Shown here: piece after piece, positions 1-4,451 of the stretch
Layout: every line of letters starts with the position of its first letter
How positions within the stretch are numbered: the stretch's first letter is position 1
Assembly: GCA_030828465.1 (NCBI GenBank)
Contig: JAURCL010000009.1
Span: forward strand, 1-51,326
Source of the DNA: Acidimicrobiales bacterium
GTDB taxonomy: Bacteria > Actinomycetota > Acidimicrobiia > Acidimicrobiales > Ilumatobacteraceae
Reading direction: 5' to 3'
Length of the DNA: 51,326 nucleotides
Translations under genes and position numbers: made by a program
The notes under the pieces: model-generated
Told to the model about the DNA's origin: nothing
What the model saw: only the letters and a program-made list of their open reading frames with translations
The model's database searches: none

Positions 1-441
1 CAACGGTGCGATCCGTCGGGCGACTGCGAGGAAGTCCGCGAGAGCCTGAGCATCGGACATCTGCTCGAGGGCGATCGGAACACCGGAGGAGTCGACAACC
101 ACCACGACGACGGGAGTATCGGCGGGAACCCTGATGGTGCCCGCTTCGGTCGCGGCGGGCATGGAGGATGCCGGGGTGCTCGGCTCGGTGACCGGGAGTT
201 CGTCACCGCTCGTCGCACCTTCCGCGATGCCGTAGGCGGTCATCATCGCGAGGACCGCGGTCGTGGAGCCGCCGACGGTTGCCACGCGAGCTGCTCGGGC
301 TGGGTTGCGTCTCCGGCCAGTCGCTGAGGGCGCCGATGCGGGCGGTTCGTCAACGGCGGTCGGAACCGGACGGGTCGCTCGAGCGGCGCGGAGCGCCGCG
401 AGCCTGGCCGCTCGATCCTCGGGCGAAGGACGCTCAGTCAT
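1..441 (-). CDS. Hypothetical single-pass membrane protein, 3' end outside window
   Basis: The reading frame starts at ATG 441-439 and stays open to the window edge, giving 147 residues without a stop. The N-terminus (about 50 residues) is rich in Arg, Ala and Pro and should be cytoplasmic. One hydrophobic stretch follows around residues 60-75, then a Pro/Thr/Ser-rich linker, then a more ordered part containing a run of six valines and the beginning of a folded domain. Its start overlaps the stop of the aspartate-tail gene upstream by 8 bp, so the two genes are probably co-transcribed and translationally coupled. I do not recognise the family. In actinobacteria such genes can neighbour flavin-transfer or ferric-reductase functions, but nothing here shows that. 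Confidence 0.6.
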   Translation of the reverse strand, partial: MTERPSPEDRAARLAALRAARATRPVPTAVDEPPASAPSATGRRRNPARAARVATVGGSTTAVLAMMTAYGIAEGATSGDELPVTEPSTPASSMPAATEAGTIRVPADTPVVVVVVDSSGVPIALEQMSDAQALADFLAVARRIAPL

Positions 442-1204
442 CGTCGCGCTCGTCGTCGTCGTCATCATCGTCGTCATCGTCATCGTCATGATCGTCGTCG
501 TCGTCCTCCTCATCGTCATCGTCGTCGTCGTCGTCGTGATCGTCGTCGTATCGCGCTGGGGCCGGCGGAGTGACCTCGCGACTCGAGAGCTCTGGGACGA
601 TGCCGAGTTGCGCGTCGAAGGTCGCTTCGAAGGTCACCTCAACCGCGCCGTCGGTGAACTCGACCTCCACGGCGTTCCGTGCCGGATACGCCTCGGTCTT
701 CACGACGGTCCAGCCGGCCGCCGCACTCGCATCGAGCACCAGGATTCGCGAGCTCACAACGTCGACGGTGACGGTGCCTGCTCCGCCAACGTTGAAGGTC
801 GTGAGGTAGGAGGCTGGAACGGTGGTCGTCGGCGCCACGGTGGGTGGGGTCGTCGTGACGGGTGCCGCAGGAACAGTCGTCGGCGTTGGAGCGACGGTGG
901 TGACCGTCGGATCCTCTGCCCCGACCAACCTCGATGAGACCGGCGCCGGTGTGGCGCTCGCGGCTTCGTCCGTTCCGGTCGACTGCGCGGCCGTCGCCGG
1001 TGCCTCGGTGGTCGACGTAGCGGTCACGACCTCAGCCGTGGGCGGCAGGGTGAGGTCAACGGTCGCCGCTTCCGGGATGAACGCGGACGAGGCGGCGGCC
1101 TCGGTCGGCGTGGAATCGAAGATCGAGGTGTTCACGAGCGCGGCAGCCGCGCCGGCGCCGAGCACGCCAACGAGGCTCAACGTGGTGGCGAGTGTGGTCT
1201 TCAT
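434..1204 (-). CDS. Exported protein with C-terminal poly-aspartate tail
   Basis: This is a 256-residue protein. I chose the ATG at 1204 because it has a good ribosome binding site (AGGAGAG) and opens directly into a signal-peptide-like hydrophobic stretch (residues about 4-24). Next come a long Thr/Pro/Ala-rich linker (about residues 35-150) and a compact valine-rich, probably beta-sheet domain (about 150-215). The last 37 residues are 31 Asp, 3 Glu, 2 His and 1 Arg. Such a tail could bind calcium or other cations, or a positively charged surface; that is inference. It is transcribed divergently from the OmpR-family regulator at 1377, and the shared intergenic region carries a regulator-type direct repeat. 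No catalytic motif is visible. Confidence 0.8.
   Translation of the reverse strand: MKTTLATTLSLVGVLGAGAAAALVNTSIFDSTPTEAAASSAFIPEAATVDLTLPPTAEVVTATSTTEAPATAAQSTGTDEAASATPAPVSSRLVGAEDPTVTTVAPTPTTVPAAPVTTTPPTVAPTTTVPASYLTTFNVGGAGTVTVDVVSSRILVLDASAAAGWTVVKTEAYPARNAVEVEFTDGAVEVTFEATFDAQLGIVPELSSREVTPPAPARYDDDHDDDDDDDDEEDDDDDHDDDDDDDDDDDDERDDD
437..547 (-). repeat. GAY trinucleotide microsatellite encoding the Asp tail
   Basis: A 111-bp tract made almost entirely of GAC/GAT codons on the minus strand (cgt/cat on the plus strand), broken by two Glu, two His, another Glu and one Arg codon. Runs of eight and twelve consecutive Asp codons are present. Mixed GAC/GAT use shows some selection or drift against pure slippage, but the tract is still prone to length change. 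It ends one codon before the stop, so in-frame changes would alter only the acidic tail. Confidence 0.9.
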
Positions 1205-1251
1205 GATCTCTCCTGTCGGGGGTTCGGGATCTCTCCCATGTCGTGCCACCG

Positions 1252-1257
1252 ACGGTA
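1252..1257 (-). promoter_or_regulatory. Putative -10 box of the Asp-tail gene
   Basis: TACCGT on the minus strand. It places transcription start near 1245 and gives a leader of about 40 nt that contains the AGGAGAG ribosome binding site. The -35 position shows no recognisable hexamer, which would fit dependence on an activator. Confidence 0.45.
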
Positions 1258-1285
1258 CGGAACGCTTGCCAGCACAGGGAACGAC

Positions 1286-1306
1286 GACATCCAAGGGACA
1301 TCCAAG
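1286..1306. promoter_or_regulatory. Direct-repeat operator, likely bound by the adjacent response regulator
   Basis: GACATCCAAG occurs twice, at 1286-1295 and 1297-1306, with an 11-bp period. One helical turn between direct half-sites is the usual architecture of OmpR/PhoB-family operators. The repeats lie about 41-61 bp upstream of the predicted start of the Asp-tail gene, the position expected for an activating site, and also just ahead of the regulator gene itself, so autoregulation is possible. Confidence 0.5.
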
Positions 1307-1376
1307 AAGTGGTCGGAGATGTCCAGATCGTTCCGATTCGCGCCCGATTCGGGGCAAGCGATGAAACAATCGGAAT

Positions 1377-2063
1377 ATGTCCGGTAACCAACGGCTGCTG
1401 CTCGTCGAAGATGATGACTCGATCGCCCGGTCCCTTACCGGCCCCCTCGAGTCCGCCGGATTCAGAGTGGAGCACGTCTCCACTGGCGCTGAGGCCGTGT
1501 CCGCGCGCGGAGCTGATGTCGTGCTCCTCGACCTCGGCCTGCCCGATATGGACGGCTACGACGTTTGTCGCGCGATTCGGGCTCATTCCGATGTCCCCAT
1601 CATCGTGGTGACCGCCCGCAGCGACGAGTTCGATCGGGTGCTCGGGCTTGAGCTCGGCGCCGACGACTACATGGTGAAGCCCCTCGGCACTCGTGAGCTG
1701 ATCGCGAGGATCCGGGCCGTGCTTCGACGCACCGGGGGACGTCCGACAGGGGTCGACGGAGACGACCGTCTCACTGTCGGGCCTCTCAGTATCGACCGCC
1801 GAACCCACCGGATCCACCTCGATGGCGAGGAGGTGCCGTTCACCCCGAAGGAGTTCGAACTGCTCGTGTTCCTCGCTGAGGATGCTGGAGCGGTGCGCAC
1901 CCGGACCGACATCGTCGAGCATGTCTGGGACGCCAACTGGTTCGGGCCGACCAAGACCGTCGACGCGCATGTCGCCAGCATCCGCCGCAAACTCGGCTCG
2001 CACTCGTGGATCGAGTCGGTGCGAGGCGTCGGTTTCCGGCTCGTGGAACCCTCCGGCTCGTGA
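1377..2063 (+). CDS. OmpR/PhoB-family response regulator
   Basis: A 228-residue transcriptional regulator. The receiver domain spans residues about 5-118, with the acidic pocket E11-D13, the phospho-acceptor D52 in the motif LLDLGLPD, T79 and K101. A winged-helix DNA-binding domain follows (about 130-226), ending in the family-typical segment with VDAHVASIRRKLG and RGVGFRL. It forms an operon with the histidine kinase: its stop overlaps the kinase GTG start as GTGA. It probably binds the direct repeat upstream of its own gene and controls the divergent exported protein. The stimulus cannot be read from the sequence. Confidence 0.95.
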   Translation: MSGNQRLLLVEDDDSIARSLTGPLESAGFRVEHVSTGAEAVSARGADVVLLDLGLPDMDGYDVCRAIRAHSDVPIIVVTARSDEFDRVLGLELGADDYMVKPLGTRELIARIRAVLRRTGGRPTGVDGDDRLTVGPLSIDRRTHRIHLDGEEVPFTPKEFELLVFLAEDAGAVRTRTDIVEHVWDANWFGPTKTVDAHVASIRRKLGSHSWIESVRGVGFRLVEPSGS

Positions 2064-3454
2064 GACGTCGACTGATCGCCGTCCTCGTCGGCGTCGTCGT
2101 GCTCGTGCTCGCGGTCCAGGACCTCCCTCTCGTCGGCCACCTCCGAGTCGTCGAGCGCGATCGCCTCGTCACTCGACTGGAGCGCGACGCCTTCATCCTC
2201 GCCGGTCGAGTGGAGGAGGACCTCGAGGCGGGCACAGCCGACGACAACGCCGTTCTGCTCGGGCTCGTGGAGCGCTACGAGGTCAGCGAGGACGTCAGCG
2301 TGGTGGTGACCGACACCCGGGCACTCGCCGTGCTCGGACCCGACTTCGACGTCGGGGAGGACTTCTCGAACCGCCCGGAGATCCTCGAAGCGCTCGCCGG
2401 CCGCCCCGAGACCGGTGAACGCGACTCGGTCACCCTCGGCCAACGACTCTTCTACGTGTCCGTCCCGGTGCTCAGCGGCGACGGGGTGGTTGGGGCCGTT
2501 CGCATCACCGCTCCAGCCTCGCGCGTCGACGAGGAAGTCGCCGATCGATTGTGGGGTCTCGGTCTGGTCGTGGCTATCTCAGTGGCGATCGCCGCCTTCG
2601 CCGCTCTGGTGATGGCATGGACGGTGACCCGCCCGCTCTCGCGGCTCTCGGAGAGCGCCGCCCGTCTCGCTGGTGGCTCGCTCTCCGAACGCGCGCCCGA
2701 GGGAGAGGGCCCTCCCGAGGTCCGTTCCCTCGCGCGACGGTTCAACCTGATGGCCGAACAGATCGAGTTGCTCGTCGCCCGCCAACGCGCCTTCGCTGGA
2801 ACCGCCTCCCACCAGCTGCGAACCCCGCTGACCGCGCTTCGCATTCGTTTGGAAAGCCTCGCCGCCGCCTCCGACGGTGTCTCAAGTGACCCCGCTCTTA
2901 CCGAGCACATCCAGGAGGCGATCGCCGAGACCGATCGGCTGCACCGAATGATTGAAGGTCTTCTCGCCCTCACTCGGGCCGAGGAGGCGGGCCTCGCGCC
3001 CGTAGAGGTCGATCTCGCGGCGATCGCGGCCGAGCGGATCGACTACTGGGCCCCGCTCGCCGGGGAGCGCGGTGTCGAGCTCCGGCTTCGCGGCGATGAT
3101 CCGGAGATCGCTTTGGCGGTAGCGGGCTCGGTCGAGCAAATCATCGACAACTTGGTGGACAACGCACTCGACGTCGCGCCGCTCGGCTCCGAGATCCTCC
3201 TCGAGGTCGAAAGGGCCGGCGAGCGGACCGAGCTTCGAATTATCGATGCCGGTCCGGGGCTCAGCGAGACGGATCGCGACATGGCCTTCGACCGATTCTG
3301 GCGGGCGCCGGGCGCGACACCGGGAGGGTCTGGGCTGGGCCTCGCGATCGTTCGTCAACTCGCCGAATCCGCCGGAGGATCCGCCCGCCTCGATGCTGCC
3401 GCGACAGGCGGTGTCGCCGCTGTGGTCTCGCTCAGGCGGCCCGAAGGTCGCTGA
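2060..3454 (+). CDS. HAMP-containing sensor histidine kinase
   Basis: A 464-residue membrane kinase, partner of the preceding regulator. The GTG at 2060 is preferred because it overlaps the regulator stop (GTGA) and places a hydrophobic first helix at residues about 5-21; an upstream in-frame start would add 18 non-hydrophobic residues inside the regulator gene. An extracytoplasmic sensor region (about 22-160) is followed by a second membrane helix (about 166-188), HAMP, and a dimerisation box with the phospho-accepting H251 in ASHQLRTPLTALR. The ATPase part shows an N box (about 361-373), G1 DAGPGL (396-401) and G2 GGSGLGLAI (422-430). Its 3' end overlaps the convergent oxidoreductase gene by 23 bp. 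Confidence 0.95.
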   Translation: MRRRLIAVLVGVVVLVLAVQDLPLVGHLRVVERDRLVTRLERDAFILAGRVEEDLEAGTADDNAVLLGLVERYEVSEDVSVVVTDTRALAVLGPDFDVGEDFSNRPEILEALAGRPETGERDSVTLGQRLFYVSVPVLSGDGVVGAVRITAPASRVDEEVADRLWGLGLVVAISVAIAAFAALVMAWTVTRPLSRLSESAARLAGGSLSERAPEGEGPPEVRSLARRFNLMAEQIELLVARQRAFAGTASHQLRTPLTALRIRLESLAAASDGVSSDPALTEHIQEAIAETDRLHRMIEGLLALTRAEEAGLAPVEVDLAAIAAERIDYWAPLAGERGVELRLRGDDPEIALAVAGSVEQIIDNLVDNALDVAPLGSEILLEVERAGERTELRIIDAGPGLSETDRDMAFDRFWRAPGATPGGSGLGLAIVRQLAESAGGSARLDAAATGGVAAVVSLRRPEGR

Positions 3455-4451
3455 GCACCGCCGCCCAACGATCCGGATCGCTCCGGTAGGGGGCGTAGAA
3501 GCCGAGGCGATCGACGATGTCACCGAACCGAGCACGCAACTCGGGGGCGATCCCCTCGGGCTCGGCGACCACCGCGAAGGTGTTGAGTACCTCGTCGTCG
3601 ATCAACTCGCCCATGGTCTCCCACTCACCGCGCTTGGAGAGCCCATTCAACTCGTCCTGCAACTCTCCCCAGCCATGGAGATCGAGCACCGCGCGATAGG
3701 CGGGGGTCGAGCCGTAGAAGGCGATCTGCTGACGGGTCGCTTTCGCCGCCGCGGCCATCTCCTCCTCGGTGTTCCCGGTGACCACGAACAGCGGTCCGGA
3801 GATCTCGAACCCGTCGAGAGACAGCCCCGCTCGCTCGCGGCCGCGCTGCAACGCCGGGATCGTCACCTCGCGCAGGTAGCGCTCGGTCGTGAAGCCGTGG
3901 CAGAAGAAGCCGTCGCAGACTTCACCGGCGACCTCGGTCATCAACTGCCCGACGCCGGCGAGGAACACCTTCGGCGGACCGAACCCGTCGAGGTCGGCGG
4001 CGTCCGGGGTGAAAAACGGCGTCATGAGCGTGTGCCGGTAGAACTCGCCACGGAAGGCGAGTGGCTCACCGTTGAGCCAGGTGGCCCAGATCGCGCGGAC
4101 CGCCTGGATCATCTCGCGCATCCGGGGAGCGGGATGGCTCCACTCCATCGAGAAGCGTTTCGTGATGTGCGGCTTGATCTGACTGCCGAGACCGAGGTGG
4201 AATCGGCCTCGCGAGTACGCCTGCAGGTCCCATCCGATGTTGGCGAGCAGCATCGGATTCCGCGCGAAAGCGACGGCGATCGAGGTGCCGAGGTCGACCC
4301 GCTCGGTCGTTGTGGCGGCTGCGACCAGCGGAAGGAACGGATCGTGAGCGGTCTCGGCGGTCCACACACCGTCGTAGTTCGCCGCCTCGAATTCCGCTGC
4401 CGCGCTGCCGGCGTCGGCGATGGTGGACGGCAGGGTCGCGTCGATCTTCAT
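3432..4451 (-). CDS. F420-dependent LLM-class (luciferase-like) oxidoreductase
   Basis: A 339-residue protein of the luciferase-like monooxygenase fold. Visible family marks are the N-terminal strand MKIDATLP, YDGVWTAETAHDPFLPL, DLGTSIAVAFARNPM, GRFHLGLGSQIKPHITKRF and FLAGVGQLMTEVAGEVCDGFFCHGF. These resemble the actinobacterial subfamily annotated as TIGR03617, which is predicted to use the deazaflavin F420 rather than FMN. The substrate is unknown. It is monocistronic with a leaderless promoter, and its last 23 bp overlap the histidine kinase gene tail to tail. Confidence 0.88.
   Translation of the reverse strand: MKIDATLPSTIADAGSAAAEFEAANYDGVWTAETAHDPFLPLVAAATTTERVDLGTSIAVAFARNPMLLANIGWDLQAYSRGRFHLGLGSQIKPHITKRFSMEWSHPAPRMREMIQAVRAIWATWLNGEPLAFRGEFYRHTLMTPFFTPDAADLDGFGPPKVFLAGVGQLMTEVAGEVCDGFFCHGFTTERYLREVTIPALQRGRERAGLSLDGFEISGPLFVVTGNTEEEMAAAAKATRQQIAFYGSTPAYRAVLDLHGWGELQDELNGLSKRGEWETMGELIDDEVLNTFAVVAEPEGIAPELRARFGDIVDRLGFYAPYRSDPDRWAAVLSDLRAA

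Follow-up and report, generated by a model that had tools for sequence, protein, structure and literature searches.

Gene organization at the acidic-tailed protein locus

The window analyzed here, a stretch of DNA of 51,326 nt, carries close to its first position a minus-strand gene (434–1204) for a 256-aa protein, P0001, delineated from its open reading frame and its homologues. P0001 is composed of a hydrophobic N-terminus, a Thr/Pro-rich linker, an 80-residue beta domain and an acidic C-terminal tail. The hydrophobic segment (residues 1–29; 1118–1204, minus strand) was defined on a 21-row alignment and is probably a signal peptide or a membrane anchor. It holds 8 of the 11 invariant columns of this alignment; the invariance is partly one of construction, because the loci were retrieved with the pattern AGSAAA[LM][VA]N. 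Judging from its N-terminus (MKTTLATTLSLVGVLGAGAAAALVN), the protein is probably exported. Gene 2 (1–441, minus strand), recognized as an open reading frame with relatives, is cut by the contig end, and its start overlaps the end of the tail by 8 nt (434–441, minus strand), as seen in the sequence and in relatives. Divergently, on the plus strand, lie the genes of an OmpR-type response regulator (1377–2063) and a sensor histidine kinase (2060–3454).

The beta domain (residues 132–210; 575–811, minus strand) was delimited from the alignment and from AlphaFold2, which predicted seven strands with a pLDDT of 95.9. When 29 members were compared with Pfam, 11 families were matched by one member each (best value 0.00086, SpaA_4) and no match was family-wide. 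A profile search of PDB sequences with the domain gave no matches at E up to 10, and Foldseek gave none at E ≤ 0.001; the best fold match in a second look, 4k15 (lmo2686; Z 7.5, rmsd 2.5, 76 residues), is within the usual background. Weak full-protein matches in Pfam and NCBIfam (CDC45, NOA36, ZrgA), located mostly on the tail, were discarded as low-complexity chance, the NCBIfam run covering the window protein P0001 only. ZrgA is a zinc uptake protein that is exported and has an acidic/His low-complexity stretch. P0001 reached 11.7 bits against the ZrgA model (NF047873), for which the cut-off is 185, and the match lay on the tail alone.

Composition and codon usage of the acidic tail

The tail is encoded by 37 codons (437–547, minus strand) followed by the stop codon TGA (434–436), as determined from the sequence, the codon count and TRF. 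The translation of these codons gives 31 Asp, 3 Glu, 2 His and 1 Arg, exactly the composition that the first-pass annotation had assigned to a 111-bp GAY tract, and the codon count (22 GAC, 9 GAT, 3 GAG, CAC, CAT and CGC; GAY in 31 of 37) agrees. A 27-nt pure GAY run was found only in this tract in the 1.83-Mb draft genome to which the window belongs (four overlapping registers, all in the one tract; none for the reversed pattern used as a control).

The annotation had also called the tract a microsatellite, the length of which may vary between strains and so allow quick tuning of charge. The label holds in so far as TRF reports a period-3 array at 437–549; it fits poorly with the 77% matches of this array, its mixed codons and its perfect runs, the longest of which are (GAC)5 and (GAT)2. 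GAT and GAC are not clustered along the tail (17 runs vs. 13.8 expected from shuffles). The share of GAT among Asp codons is 9/31 in the tail vs. 41/121 in five other genes, hand-chosen from the window, and over 59 homologue genes, the fused L029 among them, it is 0.26 in the tails and 0.23 in the domains. Such a codon mix is what selection for Asp with unconstrained third positions would yield. The idea of a tuning device gains little from codons near background and from homologue tails that use different residue mixtures.

The acidic C-terminus as a trait of the protein family

With P0001 as the query, matches were obtained in 17 of 61 genomes, its own included. A six-row profile that contained the tail matched 86 of the 221 genomes examined from the window's own family, and a domain-only profile (E ≤ 1e-5) matched 47 of 397 genomes sampled evenly from the order. 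In public genomes, a first scan with the six-row genus alignment gave no match; a broader alignment gave 25 loci, found in metagenome-assembled genomes labelled Ilumatobacter, Ilumatobacteraceae, Acidimicrobiaceae, or only Actinomycetota and similar. A literature search returned nothing on bacterial polyaspartate C-terminal tails and metal, on aspartate-rich proteins of Ilumatobacter, or on aspartate and two-component systems of Ilumatobacteraceae, and in a wider search on periplasmic or low-complexity polyaspartate and iron all of the matches listed appeared unrelated.

Altogether 81 distinct domains were collected, 78 of them with a closed C-terminus; 68 of these 78 end in DD and 52 in DDD. 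Where a divergent response regulator was present in the fetched stretch (59 homologues), the protein ends in DD in 55 cases and in DDD in 44, and 49 of the 59 have at least 40% D+E across the last 15 residues. A DD end was also found in 13 of the 19 homologues for which no regulator was seen. Among 212 neighbor proteins (regulators, kinases, ApbE, membrane protein and gene 2), neither a DD end nor 40% D+E was observed in any. The four exceptions to the DD end among the 59 are L029 (genome G001), two L134 proteins and one of the pair encoded at L139. On these sequence grounds, the acidic-tailed, probably exported proteins are a little-known family with the Asp-rich end as its hallmark.

The tails are built of different residue mixtures: pure D, D/H, D/E/H, D/S, D/K, charge-balanced E/K/R/H, and some that are Gly/Ser-rich. 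In L168, L074, L081 and L032, for example, the tail is charge-balanced or Gly/Ser-rich with little besides the terminal DD. Since such tails would bind metal poorly, what is conserved may be an acidic end rather than a sponge for metal. The annotation had suggested comparing the tract among relatives, with fixed length and codon pattern as the outcome that would count against it. Comparison of six genus members gave 29 to 57 residues after the domain (the seventh, G001, is fused and was left out), and both the length and the sequence of the tail differ between species, so that outcome did not occur. The varied residue mixtures and the background codon usage point to selection acting on the protein, and the negative charge itself looks to be under selection.

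In G001 (L009 1920–2110, G001:C4), a frame change inside the tract leads into an Arg/Gly/Pro-rich stretch and an in-frame fusion to gene 2, which gives a 665-codon open frame; tract instability and an assembly error are both possible causes. Elsewhere (L078 4254–6522, G221:C10), two acidic-tailed genes with tails of differing composition stand in tandem.

The divergent two-component system and its putative operator

Pfam searches identified a receiver domain (PF00072) and a Trans_reg_C domain (PF00486) in the regulator, and HAMP, HisKA and HATPase_c domains in the kinase, the architecture of an OmpR-type two-component system. The divergent regulator and kinase are present in most scanned loci, across several families of the order. 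No regulator was seen adjoining the protein at L163, L070, L136 and L137 (L137 with little upstream sequence); as the flank at several homologue loci was just 1.5 kb long, "no regulator seen" and, below, "no ApbE seen" are not equivalent to absence.

Comparison of upstream regions revealed a direct repeat, TTGGAT-N5-TTGGAT (1289–1305, minus strand), between the divergent genes. With an 11-bp period, TTGGAY-N5-TTGGAY occurs exactly in 38 of 57 upstream regions and with up to one mismatch in 45; among 570 shuffled regions the respective numbers were 0 and 1. In 10 of the 57 regions, seven of them outside the family of the window, the repeat has at least three mismatches. A -10-like hexamer, TACCGT (1252–1257, minus strand), lies 31 nt from the repeat, and TA[CT][CGT]NT was found 31–33 nt past the repeat in 35 of 45 cases, a count without a shuffle control. 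By consensus, neither a sigma-70-type promoter nor a terminator was recognized in 1–3600. The repeat is a probable operator, which the response regulator would bind.

An 18-nt form of the site (YTTGGAYNNNNCTTGGAY) gave 15 matches in 20 genomes, 11 of which are at the promoter of the acidic-tailed gene and four elsewhere (G004, G221 twice, G223); the reversed pattern gave 2 matches in the 20 genomes. No match was found in the seven genomes lacking the acidic-tailed gene. The site is present at this promoter in eleven of the 13 gene-bearing genomes, and for nine of these it is the sole match; G007 and G223 have no match of the 18-nt form at the promoter of the acidic-tailed gene. The genome of the window contains the 18-nt form once, and in G145, assembled as a single contig of 5 Mb, exactly one match is present, located at the acidic-tailed gene. 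The two-component system is the firmest partner of the acidic-tailed protein.

Gene 2, ApbE and the ferric-reductase-like protein

Across several families of the order the genes follow a common layout: after the kinase-regulator pair and a divergent promoter come the acidic-tailed protein and gene 2, followed by ApbE and a ferric-reductase-like protein, with not all parts present at every locus. ApbE (PF02424) scored above the cut-off in all three relatives' proteins scanned, and PF01794 in all four relatives' membrane proteins scanned. In the genome of the window, contig C36 ends within an ApbE gene, behind which lies a ferric-reductase-like gene (a PF01794 homologue by sequence comparison). 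This fits an arrangement in which the window contig and C36 flank one assembly gap after gene 2; the orientation agrees, the contigs not being joined. In G223 (L163, G223:C20; L162, G223:C17) the two modules are apart, one copy of the family lying with a two-component system and a second copy with ApbE and a ferric-reductase-like gene.

Co-occurrence of ApbE and the beta domain was determined in 81 genomes of the window's family that are at least 90% complete, with the domain called at E ≤ 0.001. Both were present in 45 genomes and neither in 26, with ApbE only in seven and the domain only in three (Fisher 9e-12); with stratification by genus (nine genera, 52 genomes), the association gave a z of 4.8. 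At 18 of 59 loci, the window among them, the fetched stretch showed no ApbE, some of these stretches or contigs being short. None was seen despite more than 4 kb of downstream sequence at L064, L076, L077, L083, L087, L148 and L152. G143 (90% complete) has no ApbE match and yet keeps the acidic-tailed protein and the two-component system. Because G143 and other loci without ApbE retain the protein and the two-component system, a link to electron transfer would not be obligatory. In a casual look, no iron transporter was noticed next to the operon.

ApbE and the six-helix ferric-reductase-like PF01794 proteins together make up the MsrQ-like systems, which are conserved broadly across Actinobacteria and some of which have been proposed to be assimilatory iron reductases; their clusters typically, not universally, include an FMN-binding-domain gene (Meheust et al., 2021; PMC8238504). 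The loci studied here resemble these flavinylation clusters in the presence of ApbE and PF01794, in relatives and on C36. They differ in that the FMN-binding domain (PF04205), DUF2271 and DUF3570 gave no match in 11 ApbE-bearing, mostly draft genomes (G000, G001, G004, G007, G009, G011 and G013 of the genus, and G145, G141, G190 and G171). For PF04205, no match was obtained in 12 of 16 genomes, 11 with ApbE, these being drafts and some less than 90% complete. The passages of PMC8238504 that describe the MsrQ-like clusters make no mention of an acidic-tailed protein, of gene 2 or of a dedicated two-component system. The same source notes that genomes with orphan apbE remain and suggests unidentified substrates; Flavodoxin_4 and FMN_red have been described as ApbE substrates (PMC11334425), and N- or C-terminal tags can undergo flavinylation (PMC10722498).

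The motif DxxxGA[ST] was found in none of 81 acidic-tailed proteins and none of 15 gene 2 frames (those caught by sequence comparison), and [ST]GA[ST] in 12 and 1 of them, respectively, at scattered positions. With no conserved motif, flavinylation of the acidic-tailed protein via the canonical motif is not supported. The loop sequence W[QER]GATRT, which genus members have in their ferric-reductase-like protein, contains a GAT that was considered as a general ApbE site and dismissed, as it was not seen in the loops of the other genera compared.

The gene 2 product has a charged N-terminus, one hydrophobic segment and an Ala/Pro/Thr-rich extension. By hand count, 27 of 38 candidate open reading frames have GS at the very end or one position before it (e.g., GNSGGS, TSSGS, TSGSN, SSGSN, SSGSK, TNGSR); the remaining 11 end differently, e.g., in TTKASG, APSGA or TERSR. 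The relatives with a Ser/Gly tip include L025, L026, L027, L028, L030, L149 and L146. Given that terminal tags can be flavinylated, this tip is at most a candidate substrate of ApbE.

Possible functions of the acidic tail

The reading we prefer, and consider about evenly poised between right and wrong, is that selection has kept the tail as a polyanion, which is produced when its own two-component system calls for it and binds cations at the cell surface. The tail would be the polyanionic end of an exported beta-domain protein. This protein would be what the divergent two-component system chiefly, and probably exclusively, controls directly, and binding of the response regulator to the 11-bp direct repeat would switch the gene on. 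Outside the cytoplasmic membrane the flexible tail could then bind cations in large numbers and with low specificity. Iron or calcium would be the most likely metal, and the few His residues may add affinity for softer metals. In operons that go on to gene 2, ApbE and a ferric-reductase-like gene, the tail might hold cations near an extracytosolic flavin/haem electron-transfer chain.

Cation binding by an extracytosolic anionic tail is plausible by analogy. The Asp-rich C-terminal tail of calsequestrin binds Ca2+ (PMC12862029), and the D-repeat of the secreted protein asporin, a run of 8–19 Asp of variable length, is reported to interact with calcium (PMC6771297). The resemblance is in the way of working only. 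Calsequestrin likewise is a folded, extracytosolic protein that ends in an unstructured acidic stretch; it is made of thioredoxin-like domains where P0001 has a small, predicted all-beta domain. Asporin is a human small leucine-rich proteoglycan with an N-terminal repeat and a length polymorphism within one species.

A role of the acidic end in solubility or stability is the main rival to cation binding. Here the disordered terminus would provide protection or spacing, be it solubility, distance from the wall or membrane, or safety from tail-recognizing proteases, with no metal involved. Such a role suits a tail in which the last two or three Asp are the most constant and the rest varies from polyD to Gly/Ser-rich or charge-balanced, and which is unstructured in prediction (pLDDT about 60 in the full-length AlphaFold2 model). 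A few Asp would suffice for it, however, and many lineages carry tens of acidic residues in differing mixtures; moreover, gene 2 products, which seemingly have long extracytosolic extensions too, end in DD in 0 of 12 cases. We regard protection or spacing as rather unlikely, though deserving attention. A more doubtful proposal makes the protein an accessory sensor whose tail binds the ligand or contacts the kinase: when free, the polyanion would act on the histidine kinase, and cations would release it, closing a feedback loop. The gene and the two-component system indeed stay paired without ApbE in G143 and at L064, L076, L077, L083, L087, L148 and L152, and of 13 gene-bearing genomes, 11 carry the operator pattern at this promoter and most have it nowhere else; the protein without an adjoining regulator at L163, L070, L136 and L137 argues against a sensor arm. 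Still slimmer are the chances of a composite scheme in which the tail does the sensing for its own two-component system, and this system controls, via a usually single operator, an extracytosolic flavin/haem reductase whose ApbE modifies an undescribed substrate, possibly the Ser/Gly tip of gene 2.

Two further explanations would make the tail an accident of its DNA. A GAY tract produced by slippage and tolerated at the gene end would account for the period-3 array, the length variation between species and the frame change in G001. It is at odds with the near-background codon mix, the maximum of five units in a perfect run and the unclustered order of GAT and GAC, and with the recurrence of acidic ends, built of different residues, across families of the order; on the codon mix and the homologue tails we reject slippage as the only cause, and we consider neutral expansion very improbable. 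Finally, the DD end could be a by-product of the overlap (GATGACTGA) that carries the gene 2 start codon ATG. The ATG of the next open reading frame (at least 80 aa) overlaps the gene end in 37 of 78 genes, every one of which ends in DD. Against this, 23 of 27 regulator-linked genes without an overlap still end in DD, including L076, L077, L081, L084 and L087, where an ORF scan found no gene 2, and the acidic residues preceding the overlap are left unexplained. The start-codon overlap as the only cause is thereby ruled out, and of the readings weighed here the by-product has the least to be said for it.

In the light of these comparisons, we consider the protein family, the probable operator and the ApbE lacking a known substrate to be the more interesting content of the locus. 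The Asp run becomes a trait that can be tested across a family, in which a small exported domain carries a strongly acidic end and has, apparently, its own signaling switch. Two small proteins of the locus are open to direct assay. The analysis also points to genomes that carry ApbE and none of the three tested substrate families.
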